This document shows, piece after piece, positions 1 through 23,063 of a stretch of DNA of 23,063 nt (position 1 is its first letter; every line of letters begins with the position of its first letter). The DNA comes from a virus. Made by a program: the position numbers and the translations under genes. A model generated the notes under the pieces. The model searched no databases, was not told the origin of the DNA, and saw only the letters and a program-made list of their open reading frames with translations. The stretch spans positions 1-23,063 of the IMG/VR virus record IMGVR_UViG_3300046008_000732. The stretch is one strand, 5' to 3'.

Positions 1-944
1 TATTCGCTAATCTTTTTTAGATGTTCTGAAACTTTGTCCATTCCCGTGTAAATATACGGTGTCGTGACACCCAATTTTTTGAGATGCGTCAAATCAATGT
101 CGCAACTAATTTTAAGTTTTAGAATTTTTTTGATGGGATGCCGAATGAGTATGTTATCTAACAAAACAGGAACGTTATCTTTGTATTGAATTATCGGAAT
201 ATGATTTTTAACATCATCAAAGTTTAAGCCAAATAATAAAAACGCGCCTTTTTGCCCGTAAATTCGCGTGTTGGTTAATTTTGGTTTGACAAATTGTGCT
301 GAAAAAATGTGTTGCGGGTCGATGATGTGTGAAAAATAGCCTTTTTCTTCTTTGATTTCATGCAGTAAAAAATCGGTGCTTTTGTAACTTTTGTATTCCT
401 CAATTTTGTTACTTTTTAGCATTGCCTTTTTTGCATCGTCTGCAATTGCACGTTTTGATTTTTCACGAATGTCGTCGTTATCTAAAGGCAACTTGGCTAA
501 ATTTGAGATTACGCTCACAGCATCTGAATCGTAGTATTTGATTTTGTCGTTTGCGACGGCTGTGACATAAACAATTGCATCGTCACACGTTTTTCTTGTT
601 GCCAAAGCAAAATATAATGCCGTTAAAGCATCTTCACTGAAATCAATTAAGCGTGTCGGTGCTAAATAATGCTGCATTCGACTTAATTTATCGAAAGCCG
701 ATCTGTCTTCGATGAATTCATGATTGTTAAATCGCTGCATTTCACGATAAATGAAATGTTCTTTTTTTAAGTGATTCAAGTTTCTGTAAATAGATGGCTG
801 GAATGCGGTATCTTTGAAATCTTCAGATTCACCTCTGAAATAAACGGTGTAATTTCCTTCGTATTCAAAATCAAGAACTTTTTGCATAAATTCTGGAATT
901 GAATTCACTTTTTCTTCTTTTATTTCTTCGATGATATTGCTCAT
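1..944 (-). CDS. FRG-domain protein (3' end at or just beyond the window edge)
   Basis: This reading frame opens at ATG 944 and has 314 complete codons with no stop before position 1; the last two visible bases are TA, so it may stop right at the edge. Residues 35-55 carry the name-giving motif (YFRGESEDF then FQPSIYRNL), residues 97-102 read PTRLID, 107-113 read LTALYFA, and 231-239 read QKGAFLLFG. These are the usual conserved blocks of the FRG domain in order. FRG proteins have no established biochemical activity; they recur in accessory and defence regions. The C-terminal LKKLGVTTPYIYTG segment resembles the normal family end, so little is probably missing. A site at 1004-1030 nearly identical to one before the WYL regulator lies about 70 bases upstream. 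The ribosome binding site is weak (AAGG, about 10 bases from ATG). Base composition is strikingly A+T-rich compared with the phage genes. The family assignment is firm; the role is inference. Confidence 0.88.
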   Translation of the reverse strand, partial: MSNIIEEIKEEKVNSIPEFMQKVLDFEYEGNYTVYFRGESEDFKDTAFQPSIYRNLNHLKKEHFIYREMQRFNNHEFIEDRSAFDKLSRMQHYLAPTRLIDFSEDALTALYFALATRKTCDDAIVYVTAVANDKIKYYDSDAVSVISNLAKLPLDNDDIREKSKRAIADDAKKAMLKSNKIEEYKSYKSTDFLLHEIKEEKGYFSHIIDPQHIFSAQFVKPKLTNTRIYGQKGAFLLFGLNFDDVKNHIPIIQYKDNVPVLLDNILIRHPIKKILKLKISCDIDLTHLKKLGVTTPYIYTGMDKVSEHLKKISE

Positions 945-1003
945 AAATTCATAGCCTTTTTAGGTTCAATTTAAATAATTACAGTTCGAGCATAAACCAC
1001 ACC

Positions 1004-1030
1004 GATGACAGGTTGTGTCATCCTGAAAAA
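1004..1030. promoter_or_regulatory. Inverted-repeat site upstream of the FRG gene (candidate WYL-regulator operator A)
   Basis: GATGACA and TGTCATC form 7-base arms around a 5-base centre (1004-1022), followed by TGAAAAAT. The core GACAGGTTGTGTCAT matches the site at 1974-1988 with one difference. The site lies right after the WYL stop codon and about 70 bases before the FRG start, a normal place for an operator overlapping a promoter. Binding by the WYL protein is inferred from the shared sequence and position. Confidence 0.55.
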
Positions 1031-1921
1031 TTATTCATCTTTGTTCAAATAATCGCGCAGTTCTTGAAACAAATGATGGCGTAATTCATTCGGGCTAATC
1101 ACTTGGACATTCGGCAACCAATATCGAATTAGTGGCAAAATCTGGTGGTCGTGAGCAATCCGTGACGATACAATCAAACTGCCATCTTCCAAGGTTTTGT
1201 CGATTTGTTGATTCGGTAATAAATCGCGGCGTTTGAAATACTGCGCGACAGAACTATCGATTTTCAAAACCACTTCGCGTTTATTTTCGGCAAACCAGAT
1301 GCTATCTTCTTGCTCGATAATTTGATGAGTTGCCGCGTCTGGCTTGAACGTGTCGCATTCGATAACGATGCCTTTAAGCTGGGTAAAACAAAACGCTTTC
1401 AGCACATTTTCGACTTTCGCAGCGAGATACCAAATCGCTTTGTGATTCACAAGTTTGTACGGTTCAGCACGATAAGTTTTTTCTTTGTATTCAAATTGAA
1501 CGAGGCGATGTTGCAAAATTGCTTGTTCGAGTTGTTTAAATTCGTGGCTTTTTTTCGATAAATCTTCGTAATGATGCCCTTTGACCAAATAGGCTTGCGA
1601 AATGCGCGAATCAAAAAGCTCACGCAAAAAGTCATCTTTTAATTTTGGAAATAACGCTTTGATTCCCGATAAACAGGCGAAGCGTTCAACATCTTTGAGA
1701 TTGAGTTTGCCTAAATAAAACGATTCGAGATAAAACAAATTGCCATCTTTTCGCAATGGTAAATAAGCGAAGCGTTCCAGCAAATCACGTTGAATGGTGC
1801 GAACGGTGACATTGAATTCGAGAGCGAGTTCTTTTGGGTCAAGTTTTTCGCCTTCATTCAATTTTTTCAGAATTTCAGTTAAACGAACGGCGGTTTTATC
1901 GTGTTCAGTGGTTTTGGTCAT
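1031..1921 (-). CDS. WYL-domain transcriptional regulator (DeoR-type helix-turn-helix N-terminus)
   Basis: A 296-residue protein. Residues about 10-55 form a helix-turn-helix of the HTH_11/DeoR type, with PKELALEFNVTVRTIQRDL as the recognition region. Residues about 130-215 form a WYL domain with the literal W164-Y165-L166 motif in KAIWYLAAK. A C-terminal extension with the RYWLPNVQVISP pattern follows, as in typical WYL regulators. WYL regulators of this shape (for example the BrxR and CapW groups) commonly repress defence operons and sense nucleic acid or nucleotide ligands; that is family knowledge, not visible here. The gene lies just upstream of the FRG gene on the same strand, 86 bases apart. 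Near-identical inverted repeats precede both genes, which suggests autoregulation together with control of the FRG gene. The ATG at 1921 is chosen because it gives the full HTH. Confidence 0.9.
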   Translation of the reverse strand: MTKTTEHDKTAVRLTEILKKLNEGEKLDPKELALEFNVTVRTIQRDLLERFAYLPLRKDGNLFYLESFYLGKLNLKDVERFACLSGIKALFPKLKDDFLRELFDSRISQAYLVKGHHYEDLSKKSHEFKQLEQAILQHRLVQFEYKEKTYRAEPYKLVNHKAIWYLAAKVENVLKAFCFTQLKGIVIECDTFKPDAATHQIIEQEDSIWFAENKREVVLKIDSSVAQYFKRRDLLPNQQIDKTLEDGSLIVSSRIAHDHQILPLIRYWLPNVQVISPNELRHHLFQELRDYLNKDE

Positions 1922-1970
1922 GGTGATTTTCAGTGGATTTGAAAGAATGATAAAAACAATAACACGCGGT

Positions 1971-2000
1971 GACGACAGGTTATGTCATTTTGAAAAATAT
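1971..2000. promoter_or_regulatory. Inverted-repeat site upstream of the WYL regulator gene (candidate operator B)
   Basis: GACA and TGTC arms lie around a 5-base centre (GACAGGTTATGTCAT at 1974-1988), followed by TTTGAAAAATATT. The conserved block, including the flanking TGAAAAAT, matches the site at 1004-1030. Its centre is about 60 bases upstream of the regulator ATG at 1921, a spacing close to that of the other site before the FRG gene. I could not pick confident -10/-35 boxes. Confidence 0.55.
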
Positions 2001-2101: not shown

Positions 2102-4606
2102 TCAAATTACAATTTCACTCTGCGTCAAATTCGGCGCAGCGTTTTCAATTCTGCCTGCGCGAACATAATACTTTGCCCCTGTCGTACCTGTGCCACGCAC
2201 GCTAATAACGCCACCGTCGATTAAAGTCATCAACGACGTTTGTCCATCGGTATGTGAAAGTGTACCAACCAGCAATGGGTCTCGCGGCAAAATTTGCTTG
2301 AAAACAGACCAAACATTAGCCGTTTCCTCGCCAATTTGTATCGTTTGCCAGACCTCTTTCAAATTCGCGGTAATGGACACTGAGTTCACGATTCCGTGAA
2401 ACAGCGAGCCACTGACATTAACTCGAACCAAGTCGCCGACATTCGCCAGCGGCATATCGGTTGTGTTCATTGGTAGCGTGAATGATTGTAGTGATGGCTG
2501 CGTGAATTGCCCCGCCAAGATTCGCTCACCCAACGCCCGACACCCAATCGCGTCAGTCATTAGTGAGTTCGTGAGCGTTTGCGATAATCGTCCGCCGTCC
2601 GTTCCTGTTAAACGACACCAGCCAATCACGCCACCGACTTCACCACCGTGAATATAAACGCCGTTTGCTTGCGCGGGGATAACTGCCCGATAAGTTAGCG
2701 ATTGCAACGCGCTGTCTGGGATTACTAAGTTTGGTATTGCCTCGCCGAACTGCCACGGAAGGACGGGGTAGCGTGGCGCGATTTTTAATGTTCGACTGTT
2801 TCGGGATGGAATAACGATTGCACCGATGTCGGCGGCAATTTCAGAAATAACCTGTATCGGCGTTTTTGCGGTGTAAGAAAAAGCCCCAGCAGGGACGTTC
2901 CAATTTTGAGTCTGCCAATCAATCGTCCAGCCGTTCGGAAGTTCTAATTCAGCTAATTGCTGCACAGTAAATAAGTCAACCTGTGTGGCGGAACGTGGTT
3001 GTAAAAATGGTGGCGCGAGTAACGCGGATAAACTGTGTCCCGACAGTCCGATTTCGTCTTTTGCAAACGTCTTTGTGTGAGTGGTTTTTTCTGCCAACAC
3101 ACGCCACTCGAACCCGTTAATTGTGATAATTATTTCGACAGGCGTGTCACCCGTTGAAACCAAAAGCGGCAATTGGTCAACGTCCAGCAGCTTGCAGCTA
3201 AATTGCCACGTCCATGAATCCGCGTCGAGCGAAAGCGAAATGTCAGCCACGTTTAGCGGCGTTAAATCCGTTAATGTTGCTGTAATGGTGTGTTTCATTT
3301 GATAAACCGTACTCGTTGGAATGGTGAAGGTTACGACGTTGGTTGGCGGCAACGGTGGACGGGGCGGGTCGATAATCGTGCCACCGCCATCACCGAATAC
3401 TTGCCGCTGGCTATAAAGAACCTTTGTTTTTTCAAATTTGAAACACGACTTACGCCCCACTGGCGTTGCTTTTTTAGTGCTGACGGTTGTCGATAAGCGA
3501 TAGCCGCCACGCTGTACTGATTCGGTCAGTTGCTTTTTTGCATCGGTGAATGGATAAACAAAATCTGGCGAAGCAATGTAATTTAAAACGCTGTCAAAAA
3601 TGGTGCGAATCGTTGTCACAGGCTTAACGTCAATCAATCCCAAGTCAAAAGCAGTCGTATTTGAAACGCTTGAAGCCAAGTTAAACGCAACGGGTGATAC
3701 AGCTTGATAAATGGATTCGGTCAGCGAAAAACTACGCGACGTTGGTTGGACTGCAATCGTGAAAACGGTTGCTGGCGTGTACCAATACTGCGGTGGCATT
3801 TGTTTGTTGAGCGAAACATTAAAAACGTATGTGGCATTATTCACATCTTCGACCACAACAAAAAACGCTGAACCAATGGGAATCAACTGCTGCAAATCTG
3901 CGTTTGTTTTTGAATTGAGAGGTAACGCTGTTTCAACGACTGATGATAACGCCACATTTTTTGGAATAGCCTGCTCATGTTTAAAGCTGGTTTTCGCGCC
4001 GATTTGAAGTGTCAAATATTGCAATGACACTTTTTCAGTTGATATTTTTAACGTGTTTTGCTCAGTCGATGTCGTTGTTTCGCGGATTTGGTTTGTTGTG
4101 TCCTGGCGTGCCGCGACAGAAACAACATTTTTCACTGCGTTGGATTGCAAAAACGACGTGTTTAGTCGTGCCGACTTTGTGGTTTCCTGTTTTGAATTCA
4201 CGCCACTGAAAAGCGAGCGATTTACATTTGAATCATAGTTTCCATGCAGGTAGCCTACACAATCATCGAGTACGGCATTCAATGCTCCAAAGTTAGCCGT
4301 TACCTTGCAACTAAAAGTACCAGCCGCGTCGTCGAGCTGGGCATTGAAAGTCCCAATAGCGGGATTTATTGCCTTGCACTCAAAAGTACCAATGACATCA
4401 TCAAGTTGTGCGCGGAATAATCCAATAACGGTTGCTGGTGGCAATCCAGCACCAAAGTTAAACGAAACAGGTAATTTTGGTGGATTAACGCCTTCGTATA
4501 AGTCAAATTCAATATCGTAGAATTGAAACTTTGTCGGACTACTTGACGCGGTGTAGCCCGACAAAAACTCAAACGAAACCCTTTTACCAGGCGGCGTGTA
4601 AGACAT
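2102..4606 (-). CDS. Large phage tail protein, probable tail-hub/tip component (834 aa)
   Basis: The N-terminus (YTPPGKRVSFEF, residues 3-14) carries a short motif frequent in tail-tip proteins of this phage type. Residues 58-122 hold three copies of a short LDD-centred beta unit. A proline-rich linker (411-424, IIDPPRPPLPP) separates an extended N-terminal half from a C-terminal region (about 435-760). That region has the look of a hub domain: SLSLDADSWTWQFS, then ITINGFEWRVL, then DEIGLSGHSLSALLAPPF. This is an impression from pattern, not a firm family match. Its ATG overlaps the stop of the 135-aa gene (TAATG), so translation is coupled. It is the last gene of the late operon in this window and by position should lie at the distal tail. 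A host-binding role is possible but not shown. Confidence 0.75.
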   Translation of the reverse strand: MSYTPPGKRVSFEFLSGYTASSSPTKFQFYDIEFDLYEGVNPPKLPVSFNFGAGLPPATVIGLFRAQLDDVIGTFECKAINPAIGTFNAQLDDAAGTFSCKVTANFGALNAVLDDCVGYLHGNYDSNVNRSLFSGVNSKQETTKSARLNTSFLQSNAVKNVVSVAARQDTTNQIRETTTSTEQNTLKISTEKVSLQYLTLQIGAKTSFKHEQAIPKNVALSSVVETALPLNSKTNADLQQLIPIGSAFFVVVEDVNNATYVFNVSLNKQMPPQYWYTPATVFTIAVQPTSRSFSLTESIYQAVSPVAFNLASSVSNTTAFDLGLIDVKPVTTIRTIFDSVLNYIASPDFVYPFTDAKKQLTESVQRGGYRLSTTVSTKKATPVGRKSCFKFEKTKVLYSQRQVFGDGGGTIIDPPRPPLPPTNVVTFTIPTSTVYQMKHTITATLTDLTPLNVADISLSLDADSWTWQFSCKLLDVDQLPLLVSTGDTPVEIIITINGFEWRVLAEKTTHTKTFAKDEIGLSGHSLSALLAPPFLQPRSATQVDLFTVQQLAELELPNGWTIDWQTQNWNVPAGAFSYTAKTPIQVISEIAADIGAIVIPSRNSRTLKIAPRYPVLPWQFGEAIPNLVIPDSALQSLTYRAVIPAQANGVYIHGGEVGGVIGWCRLTGTDGGRLSQTLTNSLMTDAIGCRALGERILAGQFTQPSLQSFTLPMNTTDMPLANVGDLVRVNVSGSLFHGIVNSVSITANLKEVWQTIQIGEETANVWSVFKQILPRDPLLVGTLSHTDGQTSLMTLIDGGVISVRGTGTTGAKYYVRAGRIENAAPNLTQSEIVI
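4241..4435 (-). repeat. Three tandem LDD-type protein repeats in the 834-aa tail protein
   Basis: Residues 58-78, 83-101 and 104-122 align: GLFRAQLDDVIGTFECK, GTFNAQLDDAAGTFSCK and GALNAVLDDCVGYLHG. The unit is about 19-25 residues, with an invariant L-D-D and a following Gly. It looks like a short beta-hairpin repeat. The DNA copies are diverged, so this is an old duplication. Confidence 0.8.
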
Positions 4607-21775: not shown

Positions 21776-23063
21776 TTATACCTCCTTCAATTTAACAATC
21801 TGCCTGTTCTCTTTTTTGTCGAACTCGTTTGATTCGATAACAAATTTGCGCCCGCTTTGAATAAGGATTTCGCTCTCTGTGCCTCCGTATTCTGACAGCA
21901 TACTTATCTCCGAACCTGAGCCGTTTTTCAAGTCAAAGAAAAACACAGTATTTCCATCGTCCCTGAAATGCGATATTCCCGCCATTTTTTTCGTTGTGCT
22001 TGAGAAGTGGTTTTCAGTAACTTGCTCTCCTACGGCGTATTTTTCAAGTTGTTTTGGAGACAGCGACAGGTCGCGCCTGACTACTCCCGAATGAACGTCT
22101 AGTTTCTTCAATGCGCCGTTTAGCACTTTCGTGAATGTGTCGGCGGCTTCTGCCTCTGCATTGGTCACAACGTGTGTTGCCCACTTACCGTTTACGGCGT
22201 TTAGTCTCCCGAATACTTTGTTTTCAGTATATGAATAAACCGCCTTATGCTCAAGCTCCGACAGACCCATCGCTCTCGCGTATTCCACTCCGTTTTTATA
22301 TCTTGGACGAGCGAAATATCCGTCATCGACATCATAAAAGTCGAGTGCGGTCTGGAGTTTTTTCGCATGAACAGAAGTGTAATCGTTATAGTGAAGGTCG
22401 CCGAACTCTTTGCCGACCGTCACCTTGATTTTCGCCATTGATGGCGTTGGATCTGATAATGAAGGGTTGACCCAGTTGCCGTTTTTATCGAAGTTTTCAG
22501 GAAACTTCCACTTCATCGCTTTTATAGTTCCGCTGTCCCACGTTGCGGCGATTGGGTCTTTTTGCGCCCCTTTGAGCAGCGACTTTGGATTTTTATAGCT
22601 TCCTGGGACGACTTCTTTTTTCATGTCGTCCCAATCCCAGCTCTCCTCGGTTACTGAGTCTTTGATTTTGTTGCCCGTCTTCACGATTTTTGTATTCAAC
22701 ACGCCATCTTGGAATTTATATGGGTGCGAGATTTGAAGTTTGTCGAGATTCTCAGGAGTAACATACTTGGTGTCTGGGTCTGTTTGTGGCGTTTCGCTGG
22801 CTAATTTTTTCGTTGGTGTTGAAACTTGTGCTGGTTTCGGTGCAGGAACAGGAGCGGGCTTTTTCAACACTGTTTTTGGTTTTACGCCGCTTCCAGGGGA
22901 CGCTTCTTTTTTCACATCGTCCCAATCCCACGTTTCGCCCGTTTTTGTATCTTTGATTTTGTTGCCCGTTTTTACAAGGTCGGGATTAAACACGCCGTCT
23001 TGAAATTTATACGGGAACGCCTTTTGAACTTTATCAATATGTTCCTTTGACCACGCCTTAATT
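21776..23063 (-). CDS. Phage head-associated protein with C-terminal R-S-E ADP-ribosyltransferase toxin domain (N-terminus outside window)
   Basis: The frame is open to the right edge (428 visible codons), so the true start is outside. Visible residues 4-66 and 100-164 are two copies of a 60-residue repeat, with a third partial copy at 174-205. Between the first two lies a Pro/Ala/Lys linker. From about residue 225 to the end is an ADP-ribosyltransferase fold. LSELEHKAVYSYTENKVFGR is the usual first helix, and R329/R330 in SGVVRRDLSLS is the first catalytic arginine. FSSTTKK at 353-359 is the S-x-T strand, and TESEIL gives E396-x-E398, the ExE pair typical of arginine-specific enzymes. In Mu-like phages the gene just before gpG is the MuF-type minor head gene, and such proteins can carry polymorphic toxin tails injected with DNA. 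A MuF N-terminus is therefore expected but not seen. Confidence 0.85.
   Translation of the reverse strand, partial: IKAWSKEHIDKVQKAFPYKFQDGVFNPDLVKTGNKIKDTKTGETWDWDDVKKEASPGSGVKPKTVLKKPAPVPAPKPAQVSTPTKKLASETPQTDPDTKYVTPENLDKLQISHPYKFQDGVLNTKIVKTGNKIKDSVTEESWDWDDMKKEVVPGSYKNPKSLLKGAQKDPIAATWDSGTIKAMKWKFPENFDKNGNWVNPSLSDPTPSMAKIKVTVGKEFGDLHYNDYTSVHAKKLQTALDFYDVDDGYFARPRYKNGVEYARAMGLSELEHKAVYSYTENKVFGRLNAVNGKWATHVVTNAEAEAADTFTKVLNGALKKLDVHSGVVRRDLSLSPKQLEKYAVGEQVTENHFSSTTKKMAGISHFRDDGNTVFFFDLKNGSGSEISMLSEYGGTESEILIQSGRKFVIESNEFDKKENRQIVKLKEV
21780..21787 (-). promoter_or_regulatory. Perfect Shine-Dalgarno site for the 136-aa gene
   Basis: AAGGAGGT, complementary to the end of bacterial 16S rRNA, lies five bases before ATG 21774 and inside the end of the toxin gene. 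It settles the start and implies strong independent translation of the 136-aa protein compared with its neighbours. Confidence 0.85.
22448..23063 (-). repeat. Two and a half copies of a roughly 60-residue linker repeat in the toxin protein
   Basis: Copy 1 (22859-23063, left-truncated by the window edge) and copy 2 (22571-22762) share PYKFQDGV, VKTGNKIKD, W-DWDD-KKE, PGS and the end K-LLK/K-VLK. Copy 3 (22448-22543) keeps only W-S-IK, FPENFDKNGNWVNPSLSD. The DNA of copies 1 and 2 is also recognisably similar. Their place before a C-terminal toxin domain suggests a spacer or binding module that separates toxin from head. Confidence 0.85.

Follow-up and report, generated by a model that had tools for sequence, protein, structure and literature searches.

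The stretch of DNA analysed here, referred to as the window, is an entire IMG/VR record of 23,063 bases. On its minus strand, head genes are followed by tail genes, a gene for a WYL-domain regulator and, at the record's edge, a gene for an FRG-domain protein; the genes just upstream of this pair are phage tail genes according to PHROGs. The first-pass annotation had described a WYL gene followed by an FRG gene on the same strand in markedly A+T-rich DNA, and this description was borne out: the two genes occupy 1031-1921 (-) and 3-944 (-), separated by an 86-bp gap, and the GC content is 34-40% over positions 1-2000 versus about 42-51% in the rest of the window. The features of this end of the record are as follows.

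3..944, minus strand: FRG-domain protein, 314 aa, predicted ART-fold effector (ORF, Pfam, PDC-S15, model)
989..994, minus strand: FRG-promoter hexamer TATGCT, -10-like, 9 nt beyond the dyad; the twin record has TATACT here (by inspection)
1004..1022, unstranded: putative operator copy 2, before the FRG gene, GATGACA-CAACC-TGTCATC, with perfect 7-bp arms and a 5-bp spacer (dyad scan)
1031..1921, minus strand: wHTH-WYL-WCX transcription regulator, 296 aa, DriD/BrxR-like (ORF, Pfam, model)
1956..1961, minus strand: WYL-promoter hexamer TATTGT, -10-like, 9 nt beyond the dyad (by inspection)
1971..1989, unstranded: putative operator copy 1, before the WYL gene, AATGACA-TAACC-TGTCGTC (dyad scan)
2102..4606, minus strand: 834-aa phage tail protein (PHROGs), directly upstream of the cassette and its context rather than a part of it

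Since the window is the whole record, the FRG gene reaches the record's end. It had been called complete-looking, and it is complete save for one base: in a twin record that also carries the WYL-FRG pair (IMGVR_UViG_3300046008_001455; L002), the same C-terminal residues, KKISE, are followed by TAA, and it is the last base of this stop that lies beyond the window record. Past the FRG gene, the twin encodes an RCC1-repeat-like protein and an OmpA-like lipoprotein (both named by eye). Differences between window and twin at codon positions 1/2/3 numbered 17/12/67 in the FRG gene and 8/6/68 in the WYL gene. From this excess of third-position changes, both genes appear to be under purifying selection and to be kept as working proteins. 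The earlier placement of the pair at the tail end of a prophage agreed with the gene order, in which tail genes adjoin the pair. In a search for signs of an integrated end, the window and the integrase end of a sister phage (L137, a third record, which stops within the tail gene) had one 13-base match of unclear meaning in common, and no att site was found.

Several further observations concern the phage itself. The tail gene (2102-4606) is 61-69% identical in DNA to its twin counterpart (L002:6347-8851) over much of its second half, versus 87-96% identity for most cassette blocks beside it, a contrast suggestive of segment exchange. At the record's opposite end, an ORF at 21776-22993 (-) gave a weak C-terminal match, below the cut-off, to the ADP-ribosyltransferase exoenzyme domain PF03496 (E 0.006), and the same phage may thus carry a second ART-type protein. 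In a sister phage record, genes for a PLD/SNF2-type helicase, for a type IIG restriction-modification-like protein and for an AAA ATPase follow one another (L256:7294-17075); this record has a tyrosine integrase gene near its end, and its end sequence looks by eye like a tRNA gene.

The FRG ORF belongs to the Pfam family FRG (PF08867; 57.9 bits, cut-off 25) and matches a PADLOC PDC-S15 model over its full length (E 1.3e-69, residues 9-311). FRG proteins fell into two main length classes, one of about 270-320 aa and the other of about 430-500 aa with an N-terminal extra of ~155-230 aa; a long-form gene is found close to an end of the P2-type phage record L004 (Peduovirus P22H1). The window protein is of the short form, without the N-terminal extension found in many relatives. 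Residues invariant in 51 FRG proteins include R37-G38, Q91-H92, P96-T97-R98-L99, D101, D139, D141, R227 and Q231. The predicted structure has a pLDDT of 89.5, and the 50 structural matches listed by VIA are ART-fold proteins, with a middling best Z of 5.8. Foldseek returned no match below E 0.001, all of its matches having E > 0.2, and the sequence profile gave only poor matches in PDB (best E 0.026). The available portion of PMC9503650 places FRG in the ART superfamily, as a potential antiviral effector or NADase; the window FRG model resembles ART folds, in agreement with this view.

For 17 FRG loci on 16 contigs, the 93 proteins encoded nearby matched 85 PADLOC defence models, among them AbiE, DRT, type I and II methyltransferases and PDC-S39, versus 6 models matched by 93 control proteins taken from 14 of these contigs (93 of 100 computed control proteins entered the comparison); the counts are of models rather than proteins, and one protein may match several. 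FRG genes also occur near defence genes on plasmids and bacterial chromosomes. With the PDC-S15 listing, the ART-like model and these defence-rich neighbours, the role of effector assigned to the FRG protein in the first-pass annotation is credible.

The regulator has the wHTH-WYL-WCX architecture of the BrxR family, with Pfam scores of 33.2 bits for WYL (cut-off 21.8) and 49.3 bits for WCX (cut-off 23.9), HTH_11 scoring 23.5 bits, just below its cut-off of 25. Its model is middling (pLDDT 71, pTM 0.49; the C-terminal part is better). The closest structure is the C-domain of DriD with ssDNA (Z 15.8 over 181 residues), followed by BrxR (Z 12.1), PafBC (Z 11.6) and CapW (Z 11.5), and the fold match extends over most of the protein's length. 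In the accessible part of PMC9122601, membership of that family is defined by a BLASTP E < 1e-5 to BrxR of E. fergusonii. As a proxy for this measure, phmmer against PDB sequences, 7qfz (BrxR) included, yielded nothing at E 0.01, and a profile match to 7qfz had an E-value of 0.0031. DriD and PafBC are described as ssDNA-binding activators in the text available of PMC11804915. Because the closest structures are those of DriD bound to ssDNA, ssDNA is the likely ligand of the WYL protein, as far as the model can tell. The protein could be either a repressor or an activator, since DriD activates and BrxR and CapW repress.

A feature that had escaped the first-pass annotation is a 19-bp dyad with the core YGACA-YNNCC-TGTCR, which precedes both genes. 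The two copies lie in the window's two intergenic gaps and each is followed, exactly 9 nt later, by a TATNNT hexamer. Scanning the window with up to 2 mismatches gave 4 strand-counted matches versus 0.29 expected, with no further copies found at this stringency, and the dyad arms are identical in the window and its twin. As the same dyad and the same -10-like spacing are found before both, WYL and FRG look like one regulatory unit. The FRG-side dyad also scored as a terminator-like stem; we prefer to read it as an operator, since WYL genes in other loci are preceded by the same sequence. A sigma-70 promoter scan of the window offered no support, as its 6 matches compare with 6.1 expected; one of them overlaps the WYL-side dyad, and none coincides with the FRG-side dyad on the strand of the FRG gene.

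By inspection, neither promoter has a good -35 hexamer at the usual distance, which would suit an activator. The closest structures are those of DriD, an activator seen in complex with ssDNA, with PafBC also scoring among the better matches. These points speak for an explanation that we consider a real, if minority, possibility: the WYL protein would be a DriD-like activator that turns FRG on in response to ssDNA arising from DNA damage or prophage induction, and FRG would serve the phage cycle or host takeover, not defence against other phages. The genes found near FRG and behind related regulators bear on this explanation. FRG genes near defence genes on plasmids and chromosomes argue against it, as does the nature of the nameable cargo described below.

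To follow the dyad beyond the window, we scanned 2.58 Mb of collected loci with the 15-base pattern YGACAYNNCCTGTCR. It matched 14 times (12 distinct sites) versus 0.6 expected under uniform base use, the pattern having been defined after most of its sites were known, so that only L128 and L227 are held-out cases. All 14 matches lie upstream of WYL-subfamily genes or before the FRG gene of the window or its twin. The two held-out sites lie ahead of the WYL ORF by ~380 bp in L128 and by ~470 bp in L227, and that of L227 is the same 15-mer as the window FRG operator. Spacers other than 5 bp gave nothing in the same scan but one 8-bp match, in the window itself. Similar sites precede related WYL genes on Cronobacter plasmids (L131, L134), an E. 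coli plasmid (L132), viral contigs (L219, L221) and a gammaproteobacterial genome (L216). Among these, L219 has two tandem operator copies before its WYL gene (L219:2930-2995), and L216 has one copy and a degenerate second dyad.

A looser form of the dyad (9 or 10 of 10 arm positions), sought in 260 bases upstream of and around the start of the WYL gene, was present in 7/18 subfamily members versus 0/33 other WYL genes. This count omits three WYL genes with short upstream sequence, as well as a 92-aa ORF, the twin record and L220, which probably duplicates the Moraxella phage locus. With the window excluded, the proportion was 6/17 (Fisher p = 0.0008), and counting the near relatives L131 and L134 (83% identical) once gave p = 0.002. 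The dyad is thus tied to the subfamily, 11 of whose 18 members lack a 9-of-10 match near the WYL start. A dyad of this quality just after the WYL gene and before the next gene was seen only in the window (and its twin) among the 18. In L140, a WYL gene that does not belong to the subfamily is directly followed by a 9-of-10 match, of different sequence. In the accessible part of PMC9122601, BrxR of pEFER is described with two boxes, R-BOX1 ahead of brxR and R-BOX2 ahead of the effector operon, each with 11-bp arms and a 5-bp spacer; the window likewise has this BrxR-family trait, an inverted repeat with a short spacer ahead of the regulator gene and another box ahead of the cargo.

The pair had been proposed to be a self-contained inducible module, to be checked by counting WYL-FRG neighbours across genomes. 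Of the 161 FRG ORFs that 158 other loci contained, none had a WYL gene within 1 kb, and two (L022, L057) had one anywhere in the locus, 4-5 kb off. These loci comprised 80 genome contigs, 36 viral contigs, 36 gammaproteobacterial stretches and 6 named phage or plasmid records; the gammaproteobacterial stretches represent 37 FRG matches in 29 of 274 genomes, none adjoining a WYL gene. The WYL profile recovered WYL in 44/44 reference loci. The nearest FRG relative beyond the twin, L010 at 49% identity, is without a WYL gene beside it, and among the collected loci the pair occurs in the window record and its twin only. A general WYL-FRG association, whose absence the first-pass annotation had itself named as refuting the proposal, is thus rejected for these loci; what stands of the proposed module is a single regulatory unit, with its shared dyad and spacing. 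A sister phage record (L135) has the same tail gene (80% identical) with other genes at that place and no WYL-FRG pair. Since there is no WYL near other FRG genes and this sister record is without the pair, the pair is accessory and local. To judge from the sequences compared, the conserved partner of the WYL gene is its operator, not FRG, and the cargo varies by locus.

These counts weigh on two further explanations. The want of a conserved pairing would be expected if two unrelated accessory genes had merely met in one phage end. The operator common to both genes leads us to reject such a chance pairing, which we regard as very improbable: the WYL-subfamily operator precedes the FRG gene in this locus and was absent from the collected FRG loci that lack a WYL-subfamily gene, and window and twin have retained both genes as well as both dyads. 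Alternatively, the cassette might resemble a toxin-antitoxin system at the level of expression, a toxic FRG protein and a WYL silencer together ensuring its retention. Two genes with a common operator in an accessory position, given the sister phage record without them, would fit this arrangement. We nevertheless think it improbable, because no WYL gene lies within 1 kb of FRG in the 158 other loci, so that FRG needs no WYL to be carried, and no protein antitoxin was seen.

We then considered what lies behind related WYL genes in place of FRG. The genes found after WYL encode a HerA-type ATPase (L128), a NERD-helicase (L133), PDC-M09A (L132, L221), a patatin-dynamin protein (L233), an AAA-type ATPase (L127, Moraxella phage Mcat5) and a type I RM-like protein (L232), the last two named by eye from the translation, as well as unknown proteins (L131, L134). 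In one case (L217/L230), the gene next to WYL is on the opposite strand. Mcat5 is a second phage with WYL and cargo at a record end. Of the cargo that can be named, most is known to act in defence or is a candidate for it, rather than belonging to SOS or lysis functions, which counts against a DriD-like activator working for the phage cycle. Several cargo proteins of the subfamily had no Pfam match at E 0.01; as the operator marks such cargo, it could help to find new defence genes.

Taken together, these results lead us to favour, with moderate confidence, a WYL-controlled cassette with an FRG/ART effector, in which the WYL protein directly controls FRG and which is probably anti-phage. We hold the shared control of both genes and the ART fold more firmly than this reading as a whole, and the anti-phage role less firmly. 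The carrier would be a temperate-type phage and the cassette two inducible genes. A WYL homodimer would bind the dyads before its own gene and before FRG, controlling both together. A signal of infection or DNA damage, most likely ssDNA, would bind the WYL domain, whereupon FRG would be made; the FRG protein, as an ART-fold enzyme, would then consume NAD+ or modify a target, so that the cell or the incoming phage is stopped. A bolder version, which we hold to be improbable, is that WYL and the operator YGACA-YNNCC-TGTCR form a portable induction cassette that swaps effectors, here FRG, and that the WYL ligand is FRG's ADP-ribose-type product or the ssDNA of an attacked phage, giving a self-amplifying alarm. 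If this were true, the operator would serve as a barcode for unrecognised defence cargo.

Several known systems are close to this locus. It resembles BrxR in the wHTH-WYL-WCX architecture and, going by the part of PMC9122601 available, in 5-bp-spacer repeats before its own gene with a second box before the effector; it differs in the weak sequence similarity (7qfz profile E 0.003) and in having one FRG gene behind the regulator instead of BREX. BrxR of Acinetobacter binds a dyad over its promoter, as stated in the accessible text of PMC9122589. CapW, the WYL repressor of CBASS, has a palindromic operator of 19-24 bp overlapping the promoter, as given in the available section of PMC9122588. The likeness to CapW lies in a WYL regulator with a palindromic site at the promoter and a similar predicted fold (Z 11.5), but here FRG is the candidate effector and no cyclase is present. 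DriD of Caulobacter is closest in predicted fold (ssDNA-bound C-domain), but it is a chromosomal DNA-damage activator, whereas the window WYL protein is phage-borne beside a suspected effector; the searched text of a 2014 paper contained no DriD motif. The FRG protein is of the same family as PDC-S15, for which no regulator was described with FRG in the literature searched. Only PMC9503650 in that literature mentions both the FRG domain and WYL, in separate contexts as far as its available text goes. Neither the WYL-FRG combination nor the WYL-subfamily operator was found in the literature searched. The WYL regulator type, WYL control of defence and FRG as a defence candidate (PDC-S15) are thus already known; the combination of WYL with FRG, and an operator that marks a WYL subfamily, appear to be new within that literature. 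No trigger for FRG is shown in the literature found; here a DNA site ties the FRG gene to a specific regulator, and the locus offers a testable trigger and a reporter promoter for FRG.
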